A stretch of 33,955 bases of DNA from an uncultured Methanobrevibacter sp. (lineage in GTDB: Archaea > Methanobacteriota > Methanobacteria > Methanobacteriales > Methanobacteriaceae), in contig CANQZY010000003.1 in assembly GCA_947628455.1 (NCBI GenBank), forward strand, positions 1 through 33,955. Direction: 5' to 3'. The notes under the pieces are model-generated. The model saw only the letters and a program-made list of their open reading frames with translations. It was not told the origin of the DNA and searched no databases. The first letter of the stretch is position 1, and each line of letters opens with the position of its first letter. Position numbers and translations under genes: made by a program. Positions 2,824-33,028 of the stretch are shown in pieces.

Positions 2824-3675
2824 TTCGTTAAATCCATATTTCTTCAATTTAGCAAGCGTTTTTGGTCCTGTAGAGCCATCTTGTTCAAGGCCTGTTCTTT
2901 TTTGAAACTCTTTAATCGATTTTTGTAAATATGGTCCATAATAATCGCCAAGTGCTTTTTTATTCGTATACGCTGGAAATGTTTTATACATAAAATCAGC
3001 AATTTTCCCAACATTTTTATGCGTATCTCCAAGTGTGAAATACCCTTTTTTAGGGAAGAAATCTTCTGTTTTTGTAGTAGATGTTTCATTATTCTTTTCT
3101 TCTTTAGGTACTTCTTTAAAAGAGTAATTTGCAGCATTTTTTACAGTTGTGTATTTCTTATCTAAATAAAAAGCCTCATTTGGTAATAAAGATTTTTTAT
3201 ATGTGAAACACCAACTATCATTGCTATTTTGCAATAAACCATAATATTTTCCAAAGTTTGCTGTAACATGAAAATGATTACCCCATGCGTTACCGTCAGT
3301 TCCTTCAAGTAAGATTTTTGTTCCTACTTTTAGAACTTGTCCTTTTTTCACTTGTTTCAAATTACTCTCGTTCATATGGGTTAAGGTTACGTAAAGATAA
3401 TCTGTACCATAAGGTGTTGTTAATTTATTGACTGATTTTAAACGAACGGCATTGGTATAACCTTTTGTGCTTGACGTATCAATACCAATAATTTCTTCTA
3501 CCTTAAAATCGTTTTTAGGTTCAAAATACGAACGTCCACTGTCTTTACAAGCTTCATCCCATGGTTTATCACTATTATCTTTAGAATTCTTCCAATGAGG
3601 TAAATGATTGCCTTGATCATGACGTTGTGTTATGTTCATATATTTGAATGGATAAATTGCGTATTCTTTTGCCAT
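2821..3675 (-). CDS. Endolysin: M23-like peptidase plus peptidoglycan-binding domain
   Basis: 284 aa and the last gene of the late operon. The N-terminal half resembles the zinc endopeptidase domain seen in Firmicutes phage lysins: His residues near residue 20-27, an Asp in KPWDEA, LTHM near residue 100, and the GNHFHVT motif near 133 that corresponds to HxH of peptidase M23. A linker rich in Lys, Glu and Thr (about 190-210) leads to a C-terminal PG_binding_1 domain (GPYLQKSIKEFQKRTG). There is no signal peptide, which fits release through the holin encoded two bases upstream. It should cut peptide cross-bridges in the wall; the exact bond is unknown. Ribosome site aaggagg. Confidence 0.85.
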   Translation of the reverse strand: MAKEYAIYPFKYMNITQRHDQGNHLPHWKNSKDNSDKPWDEACKDSGRSYFEPKNDFKVEEIIGIDTSSTKGYTNAVRLKSVNKLTTPYGTDYLYVTLTHMNESNLKQVKKGQVLKVGTKILLEGTDGNAWGNHFHVTANFGKYYGLLQNSNDSWCFTYKKSLLPNEAFYLDKKYTTVKNAANYSFKEVPKEEKNNETSTTKTEDFFPKKGYFTLGDTHKNVGKIADFMYKTFPAYTNKKALGDYYGPYLQKSIKEFQKRTGLEQDGSTGPKTLAKLKKYGFNE

Positions 3676-4246: not shown

Positions 4247-4762
4247 CTAATTTAAACTTTGTACAGTTAAATAAGTACTTGTTCCGTCATAAGCAAGAAC
4301 TGTTTTTGAACCTGTATTATTTATATATAGAGACATTGAAATTGTATCACCCTCTTCAACGTCAATTACGAATGGGGAAGCGCTTAAAGAACACGAACTA
4401 CCACTTGCTGGCACTATAAATGCGTTGAAAACAGCAGTATCATTTTTATATATGGTTAAACCAAACATCGTTGTTGAACCACTTGAACCTATGTTCCCAT
4501 TTACAAGCACTCGTTTGATATTTTTACCTATTTTAATAGCACCATTTTGTAAAGTTAGGTTTTCGCCAACAGTGTAATTAATCCTATCTAATTTTATTTG
4601 CACTGCCTCATAATTACGTGTGGTAGTAATACTCGCATTACTACTTAACGAACAAGTTATTGCTTCTTTGTCTAAAATGTCTTTTAATAGTTGTTTATTA
4701 TGTGAAATAGATGAACTATCTATTAAAATTTTTCGAAAGGCTATAACAATTTTTTCAATCAT
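4247..4762 (-). CDS. Probable receptor-binding / fibre tip protein
   Basis: 171 aa. The C-terminal 120 residues look like a beta-jelly-roll of the C1q/TNF or phage fibre-head kind: alternating short strands rich in Ser, Thr, Asn and Gly, with FVIDVEEGDTISMSLYINNT near the end, a motif type common in such domains. It follows the fibre gene and precedes the lysis genes, the usual place for receptor-binding proteins. Ribosome site aaggagg. The host receptor is unknown. The assignment is from pattern and position only. Confidence 0.55.
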   Translation of the reverse strand: MIEKIVIAFRKILIDSSSISHNKQLLKDILDKEAITCSLSSNASITTTRNYEAVQIKLDRINYTVGENLTLQNGAIKIGKNIKRVLVNGNIGSSGSTTMFGLTIYKNDTAVFNAFIVPASGSSCSLSASPFVIDVEEGDTISMSLYINNTGSKTVLAYDGTSTYLTVQSLN

Positions 4763-4779: not shown

Positions 4780-5242
4780 TTAAGCTGTTCTTTTCCAATA
4801 AAATTTATCGCAATATTCATCTAACATGTCATTATAATCAATAGCTCTGACGCTATTGTAGTATATTCGTGCATCAGTATTCATCGAAGTTCCTCCGCCT
4901 TTTATGATTACATCATTAGAATGCAAGTTCCCATCAGCATCAAGGCTCACCATCAAAGCACCATTCCCGCCATCTGAACCAATAAATTCATTCGCAAATT
5001 CTAAACCATTAAAACTTTTTACGCCAAATTTGTTGTATTTTAACGTACACAAAGATACTAATCCATCCGAAATACTTTTTTTAGTGACCATATTTAGTTT
5101 AAATTCGATCGTATGACCTGCTCGTATAACTGTAAGTCGATCACAAGTGGCGTCTTCTTCTGTTAAGTATTGTGCTATATCAGAAGTTGAAGTTACACCT
5201 TCATGAAACGCTTTAAATTCTTTATCAATTAACTGCCATGTT
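4780..5242 (-). pseudogene. C-terminal part of the tail-fibre gene, out of frame after G8
   Basis: The frame just past the G8 tract reads GTWQLIDKEFKAFHEGV and runs without a stop for about 150 residues to 4780. GGTW-Q-L-I-D is a very common join motif in phage fibre proteins, normally following a sequence like IGSI...NPSSKVGG, which is exactly how the upstream ORF ends. The track's ORF beginning at 5091 has no ribosome site, so it is not an independent gene. This segment is therefore the real C-terminal domain of the 5229-6761 gene, cut off by a frame change. It could be restored by slippage, by a tract-length change or by correcting a sequencing error. Confidence 0.8.
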
Positions 5243-6761
5243 CCCCCCCCACTTTGGAAGATGGATTTTGATTTGAATCAGTGATTAATATTGAACCAAT
5301 TGGATACAACACATCATAATCCCATAAATAATCTCTCAAATCTATTTCATGTTCACCATTCTCATCATTCATTAAAATTGTCCCGTTAACAGTTAAATCT
5401 GATTTGCCAAGCGAAATTGTATCTATTCCTCTAGTCAAAACTTTACTAGTATAAATCAAGTCAGAATTATTGACTAGATCGTTAACGTACAATTCAAATA
5501 AATAACTATTTCTATAATCAGTTATTTCTCCTAAACTCAAATTTTCTATTTTAAAAGTATTATTCTTTTCATCTATAATAATATTTTCTGAAGATATCGA
5601 AAAAAATTCTGACATGGGAACATTTTCTTTATTTTCTTTATAACGATATTTAATATTTAAATTGTTTTTTATACCATCACTGTTAAATTGTCCAATAAAA
5701 ATACTCCCTGAAACGTTTAAAATTATTTCTCCAGAAGTTGTCGTTTTTCTCTTAAAATCAATACTTTTTATTGATGGAACTATATAATTAATACATCTAT
5801 TTGTTAAATCAATAGAAATATTTGTTGAAATATTTCTGCTATCTGTAACAACTATACTAAATTTTGCTGAACCAATTTTTTGAAAAATTCCATCAGATGT
5901 TTGTATTGTTTGACCATCATCACAAAGAATTTTTACAGACTTAATTGAAGCATAATTTTTTGGAACTGCTTCAACTACAAAATGAGGTTCAGATAAATTT
6001 AAAATTGGCACATCAAAATTATCACCTTGATATTCAATAGCTTTTTGATTAGTTTCTTTTACAGTATATTGAACGTCTGGTTTGTTTAAATTTTGATTTA
6101 CTGTTGCAACAATATTTGTATTTGATGTACCTATATTTGTATTTGAATTATAAGTTTCACATATCAATTTTATTGTTATCGACGAAGAATTAGGAATTAC
6201 TTGATAAATGTCTTTTGGTATTGTAAACCCAACGACAGAATTACTTGTTTTTTCAACAATTGTTCCGGAAAGATTACTGCATGACCATTTTATTGTGTGT
6301 TTGAAAGACGATGATTTACTTGAAATTGTGATTATTATACCTTCTTCAATATTTCCTGAAGTTGCAACTATAGAACTAGCTCTTGGAATCGTTGGCAAAG
6401 TAACTGATCCACTCGTTTTTCCGTTTATTGGAGAAAAGGTTGTTGAAATTTGTCCTGATAAAGAAACACTTTTAGATCCGTCGCTTGAATGAGTAATATT
6501 GTAGCTTATTTCATTTAAAGTCAAAGTGGCATTTGCTGAAATTGATGTAGGAATGCTTTTAGAATTACCTCCGTTAATCAAAGCTGAACCACTACTCCAA
6601 TTTGCAGAATAACCATTTAATGATCTAAATCTTAAACGAACACTTATATTAGAAGTATTTTTAGATATATTTTGTGAATTTAGTTTTGCCTCTAATATTA
6701 AAAGGTAGTTTGTACTTATAGTTTTTCTTGAAACTTCTTGATATGTGTTATTTAGCGTCAT
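5229..6761 (-). CDS. Tail fibre/structural protein, DUF859-like, truncated by frameshift
   Basis: 510 aa as read, about 660 aa if joined to the downstream segment. The N-terminal 150 residues (SVRLRFRSLNGYSANWSS, then THSSDGSKSVSLSG) and the Ig-like repeats that follow match the DUF859 family of siphophage structural proteins found after the Tal gene. Residues 470-500 (DYDVLYPIGSILITD) form the usual entry to a C-terminal fibre domain, which is lost here: after KVGG the frame turns to EHGS and stop. The start overlaps the upstream Tal stop by four bases (ATGA). If the tract length varies, only part of a phage population would carry the complete fibre, which could alter host adsorption. Confidence 0.8.
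   Translation of the reverse strand: MTLNNTYQEVSRKTISTNYLLILEAKLNSQNISKNTSNISVRLRFRSLNGYSANWSSGSALINGGNSKSIPTSISANATLTLNEISYNITHSSDGSKSVSLSGQISTTFSPINGKTSGSVTLPTIPRASSIVATSGNIEEGIIITISSKSSSFKHTIKWSCSNLSGTIVEKTSNSVVGFTIPKDIYQVIPNSSSITIKLICETYNSNTNIGTSNTNIVATVNQNLNKPDVQYTVKETNQKAIEYQGDNFDVPILNLSEPHFVVEAVPKNYASIKSVKILCDDGQTIQTSDGIFQKIGSAKFSIVVTDSRNISTNISIDLTNRCINYIVPSIKSIDFKRKTTTSGEIILNVSGSIFIGQFNSDGIKNNLNIKYRYKENKENVPMSEFFSISSENIIIDEKNNTFKIENLSLGEITDYRNSYLFELYVNDLVNNSDLIYTSKVLTRGIDTISLGKSDLTVNGTILMNDENGEHEIDLRDYLWDYDVLYPIGSILITDSNQNPSSKVGGEHGS
5243..5250 (-). repeat. G8 homopolymer at the fibre-gene frame break
   Basis: Eight consecutive G on the coding strand, in a region of about 25-30% G+C. 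With eight G the frame ends at once in EHGS and a stop; six or nine G would join both ORFs in frame. Long G tracts are classic slipped-strand phase-variation elements and also a common assembly error. Confidence 0.9.
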
Positions 6762-8527
6762 TCCATATCATCTCCCATATAAAAAAATCTGGTTCTTTTT
6801 TCACCAGATTCATTCGTTTTTTCTACTCTATGATATCCTTCCGTTAAATAATTTCTAACCACTAAATTATCTAGGATTGCACCTTCATTTGAAAATTCAG
6901 CTAATGGCATATCATATCTATTAATTACGAATTTTTCGTTTGTAATTAATACAGATAAGGCGCTTTCGTTTGTTGCTACTTTTATACCGTCAATATCGAT
7001 AATAACTAATTTATTTTTTAGTGTTTCTACTCCGCCATCAATGATTGCTTGAACCACTTCAAATCTTTGTTGTGTTGCAGTCTGAAGAGATAAAAATGAT
7101 TCTTCTATTCTTTGCATGTTGTTATTTGTATCATCAGCTAATTGATCTAAAATAGTTTGGGTTTTAGAAACCTCTTCCAAAATACTATCAGTTCTAATAT
7201 CAATATTTGAATTATTTTCTTCTTGAAAATCTTCAAAATCAGTTTTAGAAACATATTTTTCTGATACAGATAAATTAATATCATCTTCTATTTGAGAAAT
7301 AGTATTATTTATTTCTCTTTTAGTATCATTTAATTTTTCGTTTGTAACATAATTTGACTGAATTTCGATAACAGAATTAGTTAAATCCCTATATTTGTTT
7401 CTTTCTTCAATTTGCATATCCAAAATAGATTTTGTCGTATCCCCCAGTTCAACACTGAATTCTGTAGGATTTAAAATATTTGTAGTTTTTTTAATTACTC
7501 GTAAGTTTTCATCAACATTTAAATAATTATTTTTTACTGGATAATAATTATAAACATCTATTTCGTCATATTTTTTATTTATCAATGATAAATCTAAACT
7601 ATTAATTGAATATTTTCGTTTAATTCTATTATTCTCATTCAAATATTCTGTTGCCTTTGACAATAAATTTTTTGGAAGTGTAACATCGTCCCAATTATGT
7701 GTTCCTTCTATGATTCCATAAACTTCAATAGCTGTTTTATCCTCAATATAAGGTATTCCATTATTTACCGAAGTAATATCAACGCGATTATCATTATCAG
7801 TGTTTTCTAAATTTTCTTCATCTTCTATTTTTGCTCCATATGGGTATAAACGAGTAATAATACTATTCAGTTCATCTTCTTTTGACAAATTTTTCATATT
7901 TACTTTTATTTTTATCGGTGTCTCAACATAACTACCAAATTTATCTGCATAATCTAAATATCTTTTATTATTTTCTTTTCTAATTCTAATTTCTCCACCA
8001 ATTTTATCAATCAATTTTTCTTTTATTGCTTCAAATGAATTTTGTCGTTGCAAACCAATATAAATATTTTCATCTATGCCTGTAACTGTAATATCGCCTA
8101 AAAAAATTTGCTTTTGCTCCTCTACTTGCGAATTATGATTATTTAATATAAATAATAATAATTCTTTTCTCGTCCAATTTCGTGGATTTAAATATGGCTG
8201 TAAAGAATCTTGCAAAAATCCTAAACTTGACTCACAAACAACATTTTTCAAAATTGTTCCATCGTCATTCATAGAATCTTTTATATCTAAAACTCTACCG
8301 TCAAATATTTCTTCATTCTTTTTGACATTTATTACAGAAATTTCTGTTGCATATTGAACTAAAAAATCAAAACCATTATTAAATGGCAAAATATCAAAAG
8401 AAAAAGAATCAGCTGTATTGATTCCTTGAACGAGAGAGCCAGAAACTAAATGTGGCAATTGTGGTGAAGATTGTCGCGAATGAACAAGTATTTTATTTCC
8501 CTTATAATTAATATAAACATCGAACAT
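6758..8527 (-). CDS. Tail-associated baseplate protein (Tal/prophage endopeptidase-tail type)
   Basis: 589 aa. The N-terminal 370 residues look like the gp27-type hub fold of phage Tal proteins (NGFDFLVQYATEISVINVKK, LQDSLQPYLNPRNWTRKELL, then conserved VDEN-LRVIKK...VELGDT near 345). Residues 390-500 are a long coiled coil, and the last 80 residues (NKLVIIDIDGIKVATNE, then NLVVRNYLTEGYHRVEK) resemble the fibre-attachment end common in siphophages. Its place after Dit and before the fibre gene supports this. It should form the tail tip trimer. No clear peptidase motif is seen. It overlaps Dit by one base. Confidence 0.8.
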   Translation of the reverse strand: MFDVYINYKGNKILVHSRQSSPQLPHLVSGSLVQGINTADSFSFDILPFNNGFDFLVQYATEISVINVKKNEEIFDGRVLDIKDSMNDDGTILKNVVCESSLGFLQDSLQPYLNPRNWTRKELLLFILNNHNSQVEEQKQIFLGDITVTGIDENIYIGLQRQNSFEAIKEKLIDKIGGEIRIRKENNKRYLDYADKFGSYVETPIKIKVNMKNLSKEDELNSIITRLYPYGAKIEDEENLENTDNDNRVDITSVNNGIPYIEDKTAIEVYGIIEGTHNWDDVTLPKNLLSKATEYLNENNRIKRKYSINSLDLSLINKKYDEIDVYNYYPVKNNYLNVDENLRVIKKTTNILNPTEFSVELGDTTKSILDMQIEERNKYRDLTNSVIEIQSNYVTNEKLNDTKREINNTISQIEDDINLSVSEKYVSKTDFEDFQEENNSNIDIRTDSILEEVSKTQTILDQLADDTNNNMQRIEESFLSLQTATQQRFEVVQAIIDGGVETLKNKLVIIDIDGIKVATNESALSVLITNEKFVINRYDMPLAEFSNEGAILDNLVVRNYLTEGYHRVEKTNESGEKRTRFFYMGDDME

Positions 8528-9186
8528 TATAATACCTCTTCAACAAAATTAATTTTTAAATTAGTTGGTGCATTAACTATTACCTCTAAATCATTTTTTC
8601 CAGGATACAAAACAAAACCTGAGTTTTGATATGTTCCAGGCGAAAAGGAATAAATAACATTATTATTCTTAATATTTATATTTTGATCGCACGTTATATC
8701 AACTGTTATGGGATGAACACTGTTATTTTCAATTGAAATAATCTCTGTTTCAACAATTTCCTTTTCGAAATTCTTTGTATTCTTTGAAAACAAAAACGGA
8801 TAAATTGAAAAATTAATTGATAATTCTACTTGTTCTTGATCAGAGTTTTGTTCAATATTATTAAATGTACCAATAAAATAGTAGTTTGGTAGATACGTAT
8901 CTTCAATTTTGATATTTGAAGGTAATACAGCAAATTTATTAAAAATTTCTTGTTTTTTTTGTTCCACTTCTTGAAGAGTCAATTCTGCTACATCAATTGT
9001 ATATTTCAAATTTCTTTCTTCAAAAATGATTTCTCCAGAAAAATCAGAAAAATCAATTGATCCTTGAACAAATGGCAAAGTTTGTTTAATAGTTCGTTTT
9101 ACTGGAGGATCTAAAACATGATTACTTATATATAAGTCTAAATCTTTAAGACTATTTATACCATTTGCAACAAAATAATCTCTCAT
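8527..9186 (-). CDS. Distal tail protein (Dit)
   Basis: 219 aa, sitting between tape measure and Tal, the constant place of Dit in Gram-positive siphophages. The first 130 residues show the Dit N-terminal ring pattern (SDFSGEIIFEERNLKYTIDV, then PNYYFIGTFNNIEQ and SINFSIYPFLF), and the last 80 residues form a beta-rich C-terminal domain ending in GKNDLEVIVNAPTNLKINF. It should form the hexameric hub that joins the tail tube to the baseplate. Start and stop overlap the neighbouring genes by one base each, so translation is coupled. Confidence 0.82.
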   Translation of the reverse strand: MRDYFVANGINSLKDLDLYISNHVLDPPVKRTIKQTLPFVQGSIDFSDFSGEIIFEERNLKYTIDVAELTLQEVEQKKQEIFNKFAVLPSNIKIEDTYLPNYYFIGTFNNIEQNSDQEQVELSINFSIYPFLFSKNTKNFEKEIVETEIISIENNSVHPITVDITCDQNINIKNNNVIYSFSPGTYQNSGFVLYPGKNDLEVIVNAPTNLKINFVEEVL

Positions 9187-20355: not shown

Positions 20356-20459
20356 CCCCCCCCCATCGCGCACGCGCGCGAGATTTTTTAATTTGTCGTG
20401 GCCCACCCCGTTGTAAAAGCAATTATAAAAAACACCCCTATGGGATGCCGGGGGTACTA
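20356..20459 (-). other. Candidate cos packaging region (GC-rich, two dyads, G9)
   Basis: The gap between HNH and small terminase is strikingly GC-rich for this phage. It holds a G9 run (20356-20364), a near-perfect 16-base palindrome TCGCGCACGCGCGCGA (20366-20381), and a dyad ACCCC-12 bases-GGGGT (20434-20455). Cos sites of HNH-terminase phages lie in this interval and are often G-rich. The exact cut positions cannot be read from the sequence. Confidence 0.6.
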
Positions 20460-32963: not shown

Positions 32964-32979
32964 ATAAAATTGCATAATA

Positions 32980-33002
32980 AAACCCTTATAAAATAAGGGT
33001 TT
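32980..33002 (-). terminator. Phage-borne terminator downstream of tRNA-Arg
   Basis: A perfect ten-base stem aaacccttat / ataagggttt with a three-base loop lies just beyond the CCA end in tRNA reading direction. It mirrors the host hairpin at 1064-1092, so the phage appears to supply a replacement terminator for the tRNA it interrupts. Confidence 0.7.
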
Positions 33003-33006
33003 ATTA

Positions 33007-33028
33007 CATAAATGGTGTCCCGTGAGAG
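33007..33028. other. attR core in the 3' end of tRNA-Arg
   Basis: Matches 1094-1115 at 21 of 22 positions and includes the tRNA CCA end and acceptor strand. Since the left flank of this copy is phage DNA, the last bases of the tRNA are phage-derived if crossover fell within the shared tgagag. Confidence 0.8.

Follow-up and report, generated by a model that had tools for sequence, protein, structure and literature searches.

The tail-fibre gene of a prophage in the window (here, the whole stretch of DNA that was analysed, 33,955 nucleotides long) stops within a few codons of a run of G residues, and a long open frame continues past that run in another reading frame. This raises the question of whether the gene is broken, wrongly assembled, or able to alternate between two products. 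As the first-pass annotation had described, the fibre ORF (5229-6761, reverse strand; 510 aa) closes with PSSKVGGEHGS and a stop four codons past the run, which lies at 5243-5250 on the reverse strand and is exactly eight G long. The -1 frame, for which about 150 open codons had been claimed, is open from 4780 to 5277 (reverse strand) over 165 codons stop to stop, 156 of them counted from the run, and reads GGGTWQLIDKEF...FYWKRTA; the lengths of the two frames likewise bear out the proposed continuous protein of about 660 aa. The features discussed below are as follows.

1091 to 33028: prophage, approximate extent, with an imperfect 58-bp att-like repeat (1058-1115 and 32972-33027) adjoining a tRNA gene
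4247 to 4762, reverse strand: small separate tip-like protein, 171 aa, a possible second tip (by eye)
4780 to 5250, reverse strand: putative receptor-binding head domain in the -1 frame, 156 codons plus stop (conservation, model and fold matches)
5243 to 5250, reverse strand: G8 run, the proposed slippage tract, also a G GGG GGG heptamer in the fibre frame
5251 to 5312, reverse strand: linker ahead of the run, around YPIGSILITDSNQNPSSKV, with the common PVGSIY...NPS..GGTW join
5229 to 6761, reverse strand: fibre body as written, 510 aa (phrog_372 tail protein, E 5e-55; DUF859, E 3e-30)
6758 to 8527, reverse strand: tail endopeptidase/Tal-like protein (phrog_3558, E 1e-119; PF06605)
8527 to 9186, reverse strand: distal tail protein Dit (phrog_33, E 5e-17)

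Two G/C runs of at least 8 were observed in the window against 0.013 expected under an order-1 Markov model, GGGGGGG has five overlapping matches against a shuffle mean of 0.13, and GGG supplies 14 of 314 glycine codons (phage ORFs counted). Off-frame openings within nine other large ORFs reach 60 codons at most. The head is unlikely to be translated on its own from a start codon inside that frame, as the longest ATG/GTG/TTG ORF listed in the -1 frame (4780-5091) lacks the first third of the domain. Elsewhere in the window, the interval separating terS from the HNH gene holds a G9 (20356-20364, reverse strand) that comes after alternating G and C (cgcgcgcgtgcgcgat) and is possibly part of a cos region.

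The window carries a complete siphophage prophage that encodes an integrase, a repressor-like HTH protein, a DnaB-type helicase, HNH, terminase, portal, protease and capsid proteins, neck and tail proteins, a tape measure, Dit, Tal, the fibre and an endolysin. The host genes that flank it are LicD and GerM-like, and a tRNA gene lies next to it. Other contigs of the same assembly encode TiaS, a methanogen-type PorC and, by our own reading, adhesin-like proteins. The loci L006 and L007, whose genomes led to the host order, come from genomes named as uncultured Bacilli; of 385 genomes from the order to which the L006 genome belongs, 340 hold a relative of the GerM-like flank, the closest at 76% identity, and both flanks of the window match one contig of the best genome (L201) at 82% and 77% DNA identity. 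Since the flanks are bacterial, of this host order, while the assembly looks like that of a methanogen, presumably a Methanobrevibacter, the contig is mis-binned, and the window holds a prophage of an uncultured member of the Bacilli that was placed in the MAG of a methanogen. For that reason G runs on the archaeal contigs say nothing about switching; they were discarded as support, and runs in the true host order were used instead. These archaeal runs of G9-G12 (L060 at 3123-3131 and 5464-5474, L059, L061-L069, all in G000) fall early in two glycosyltransferase genes, where they are in frame, and in the gaps close to others; the form is often aaaatatcc-G10-taaata. They may represent an archaeal poly-G phase variation. 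A search of the methanogen's genus gave one other match, L078, which is unrelated. In G316, the corresponding site (L201 2056-2132, reverse strand) has a tRNA to which ARAGORN assigns the anticodon CTA, compared with Arg(tct) for the tRNA of the window.

Profile searches returned no family match for the out-of-frame domain. Ten other sequences nonetheless conserve it from end to end (L006, two copies in L007, L012 and six further IMG/VR loci), and all eleven residues that are invariant among them are kept in the window (G3, W5, L7, D9, K10, E11, H46, G76, C147, K149 and W152). The AlphaFold2 model has a mean pLDDT of 91.8, and its best matches among solved structures (Foldseek) include the receptor-binding heads of phages TP901-1, p2 and PSA and viral fibre heads. 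For the receptor-binding heads the Foldseek probabilities are 0.93-1.00 with E-values of 0.008-0.2, query TM-scores of about 0.45 and sequence identities of about 10-14%; the top structure match has a probability of 1.00, but an E-value of 0.0076 and a TM-score of 0.46. The predicted fold thus resembles the receptor-binding heads of siphophages weakly but consistently, and a receptor-binding function is likely rather than proven because the E-values are only 0.008 and above. The first-pass annotation had named degeneration of this downstream part in relatives as a result that would speak against it; the head proved intact in the sequences compared, and decay is ruled out by its full-length conservation, its in-frame fusion in another phage (L074, below) and the confident model.

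The body ahead of the run is a strong profile match to the siphovirus tail proteins of PHROG 372 and DUF859 (105.7 bits for DUF859, with a cut-off of 28.8). The profile matches end short of the head, and C-terminal domains are swapped freely among relatives. Fibre-body matches in the host order are open in 22 of 22 cases, and several of the homologues there end at 466-492 aa without such a head, so that a headless body is a natural form. Searches of INPHARED phages gave one 26.5% match to the fibre body and none to the head; Rfam returned only tRNAs in the tip regions. The 171-aa protein encoded just downstream has, by eye, the type of N-terminal anchor found on the tip genes of L006 and L007, and was without a family match in PHROG and Pfam-type profile searches. 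A second DUF859-like fibre, intact and with a GGTW join, is encoded on contig C35 of the same MAG (L004 1141-3066, reverse strand).

The first-pass annotation had also proposed comparing the gene with its counterparts in related prophages, and comparison with other phage sequences yielded joined forms. The fibre of L074 is 634 aa in one frame; it matches the window fibre colinearly as far as residue 505, which is where the run lies, and then continues into the same head. L012 has GTA-G9-ACA TGG at the same join, in frame and ahead of the same head family, and this distant phage with its G9 is the extent of the same-join comparison. An in-frame G9 also occurs at a similar join in L028, with a different head behind it. 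Other fibre joins are mostly coded with runs of 2-5 G. Scans of IMG/VR, which covered T-W joins followed by the codon starts set in the patterns, gave 36 stretches, of which L012 and L028 are the only fibre joins, the rest being chance matches or other genes; since both are in frame, no second OFF case was found. Among 385 genomes of the host family no second join run was found, the sole pattern match (L200) not being a fibre, and the switch, if real, is therefore not a conserved locus. A search by protein found no copy or close relative of the prophage in IMG/VR. Three IMG/VR proviruses (L124, L126 and L128) share the flanks actggcgta-Gn-cacatggca around runs of 9, 11 and 8 G, which judging by those flanks are apparently length variants of one phage gene.

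G8-G12 runs are common in most of the host-order genomes checked (G224 had none): G107 has 14 separate runs and G108 has 87 overlapping 8-mers, against an expectation of below one run per 1.5 Mb. These runs lie between promoter-like boxes and in early codons. At L155, L159, L190, L192 and L193, G8-G12 stands between a -35-like and a -10-like box (at L159, TTGACAAGCAAGT-G8-TATAAT), which makes these loci candidate promoter-spacing switches. In G223, three paralogues that begin MKKINNCSN-GGG (L181, L183, L185) carry the run at codon 10; with G9 the products are 132 and 140 aa long, and with G10 the frame is shut after 14 aa. A comparable contrast of G9 with G10 is seen in G293, and in G294 (L200) an acyltransferase-like frame is, by our own reading, severed from its G9-containing start. 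Related prophages, found by protein only, carry G8-G11 in short ORFs directly before tail-tip genes, at these positions:

L006, 3726 and 4297: short-ORF G runs
L007, 4254 and 4787: short-ORF G runs
L142, 2913, reverse strand: short-ORF G run

These ORFs begin with ATG or GTG and run for about 7-11 codons before the G8-G11, which in some is followed by an inverted repeat. Separately, L164-L174 of G275 hold many copies of a short ORF (LQ.VTWGGYFRSLSTFF..) with G9-G10 and then a palindrome, and from their sequence look like a repeat family. Because the runs of the host order and its prophages come from single assemblies, they are signs of instability rather than proof of it.

Slipped-strand phase variation of the receptor-binding head, as the first-pass annotation had suggested, is in our judgment the probable explanation of the G8 run. 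Under this explanation the run would be a slippage-prone tract forming the hinge between fibre body and head; the assembled state would be OFF for the head, yielding the 510-aa fibre that lacks it; replication that added or removed G would give the continuous fibre with its head; and a population of lysogens, or a burst, would mix both kinds of virion. The sequences show the layout of the gene, the conserved and undamaged head, its fusion in a relative and the in-frame G9 of another phage; we infer that the run changes length often enough to be useful, that virions are built with either form and that these differ in binding. The explanation is favoured because the head keeps its invariant residues, models confidently and resembles receptor-binding heads; because L074 is fused, L012 has an in-frame G9 and the run is far above chance; because the prophage is otherwise complete, in a setting where the host order carries G8-G12 runs and related prophages G8-G11 runs; and because headless-length homologues are natural and Campylobacter phages offer a precedent. 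Set against it are the single known copy of the G8 form, the 2-5 G at joins elsewhere, the lack of another join run in the host-family genomes and the in-frame state of both join runs found in IMG/VR. A wider reading, offered tentatively, is that hosts and prophages in this order of uncultured gut Bacilli both use poly-G slippage, the hosts for surface genes and promoters and the prophages for heads and tip genes, with the GG of the GGTW hinge a readily convertible switch site that arose independently in several phages.

Fixed mutation, assembly error and ribosomal shifting are each less likely than slipped-strand switching. A single past slip that has since become fixed, an ordinary recent loss of the head without meaningful reversion, would fit the one known copy, the rarity of long-G joins in the family and the headless fibres of relatives, but the head frame bears no further damage, its invariant residues are all kept, and reversion should be more frequent for a G8 run than for an ordinary frameshift; we regard this as unlikely. 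Still less likely is a homopolymer error in sequencing or assembly, with a true run in frame and a fibre that is constitutively full length. G/C homopolymers are error-prone on some platforms and the contig comes from a mis-binned MAG, but 38 A/T runs of 7-9 in the phage ORFs leave their frames open, indicating no general homopolymer-error signature, and no other gene looks broken, the window offering no in-gene G/C control run. A ribosomal -1 shift on G GGG GGG, producing headless and headed fibres at a fixed ratio from one gene, is possible because the heptamer is present and G runs permit low-level shifting, as on the G7 run of herpesvirus thymidine kinase mRNA (PMC5009743). The register of the heptamer fits such a shift (GTG GGG GGG GAA in the zero frame), the zero-frame stop follows four codons on, and the product would have the same GGGTW join as L012. 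Such a shift is nevertheless improbable: no notable stimulatory RNA structure or stem was found just past the run (z -0.56), and the homologues found with this head are all in frame, so the shifted arrangement is not conserved. RNA polymerase slippage, with mixed transcripts giving both proteins, is highly improbable, for homopolymers can provoke it but the known bacterial cases are mostly A or T runs.

If the run does vary, slipped-strand switching would let a single genotype of this temperate phage, whose hosts are uncultured gut bacteria, produce two kinds of particle, one with a receptor-binding head and one lacking it. This would point to a contest between host and phage, each relying on the same hypermutable sequence. 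The case also serves as a caution, since a fibre gene that looks truncated in a MAG may be a switch and not a pseudogene. Receptor-binding diversity within one phage is likewise the purpose of the diversity-generating retroelements (DGR) and invertible segments that switch tail fibres in Bordetella phage and in Mu/P1 (PMC10579305), although the mechanism differs; among those window genes that were checked, neither a reverse transcriptase nor an invertase was recognised. The receptor-binding proteins of TP901-1 (ORF49), p2 and Listeria phage PSA (gp15) are among the best solved-structure matches to the head, which in contrast to them terminates a DUF859 fibre and is encoded out of frame. The closest parallel lies in the Campylobacter Fletchervirus phages, whose receptor-binding proteins are phase-variable through poly-G (Sorensen et al., 2021, Cell Rep 35:109214, as cited in PMC8713573, PMC10877375 and PMC11868660); the title of that report names hypermutable polyG tracts. 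The mechanism proposed here is therefore not new. Both kinds of phage have a G tract in a receptor-binding gene and several tips per phage (the second tip of the window phage being a possible one), and Campylobacter, as the host order of the window apparently does too, varies surface genes through poly-G; length variation and phenotype have been shown for the Campylobacter phages, whereas the window phage is known from one assembled sequence. The window fibre has a long G tract inside a receptor-binding gene, and its length decides between two coherent proteins that are both conserved (the 510-aa body, and body plus head). As the defining trait is length variation, these sequence features make it a candidate poly-G phase-variable receptor-binding protein in a new phage and host group. 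The window phage differs from the Campylobacter phages in being a temperate siphophage of uncultured Bacilli with its tract at the hinge between body and head; if the run varies, poly-G receptor switching would reach beyond Campylobacter phages into a very different group of phages and hosts.
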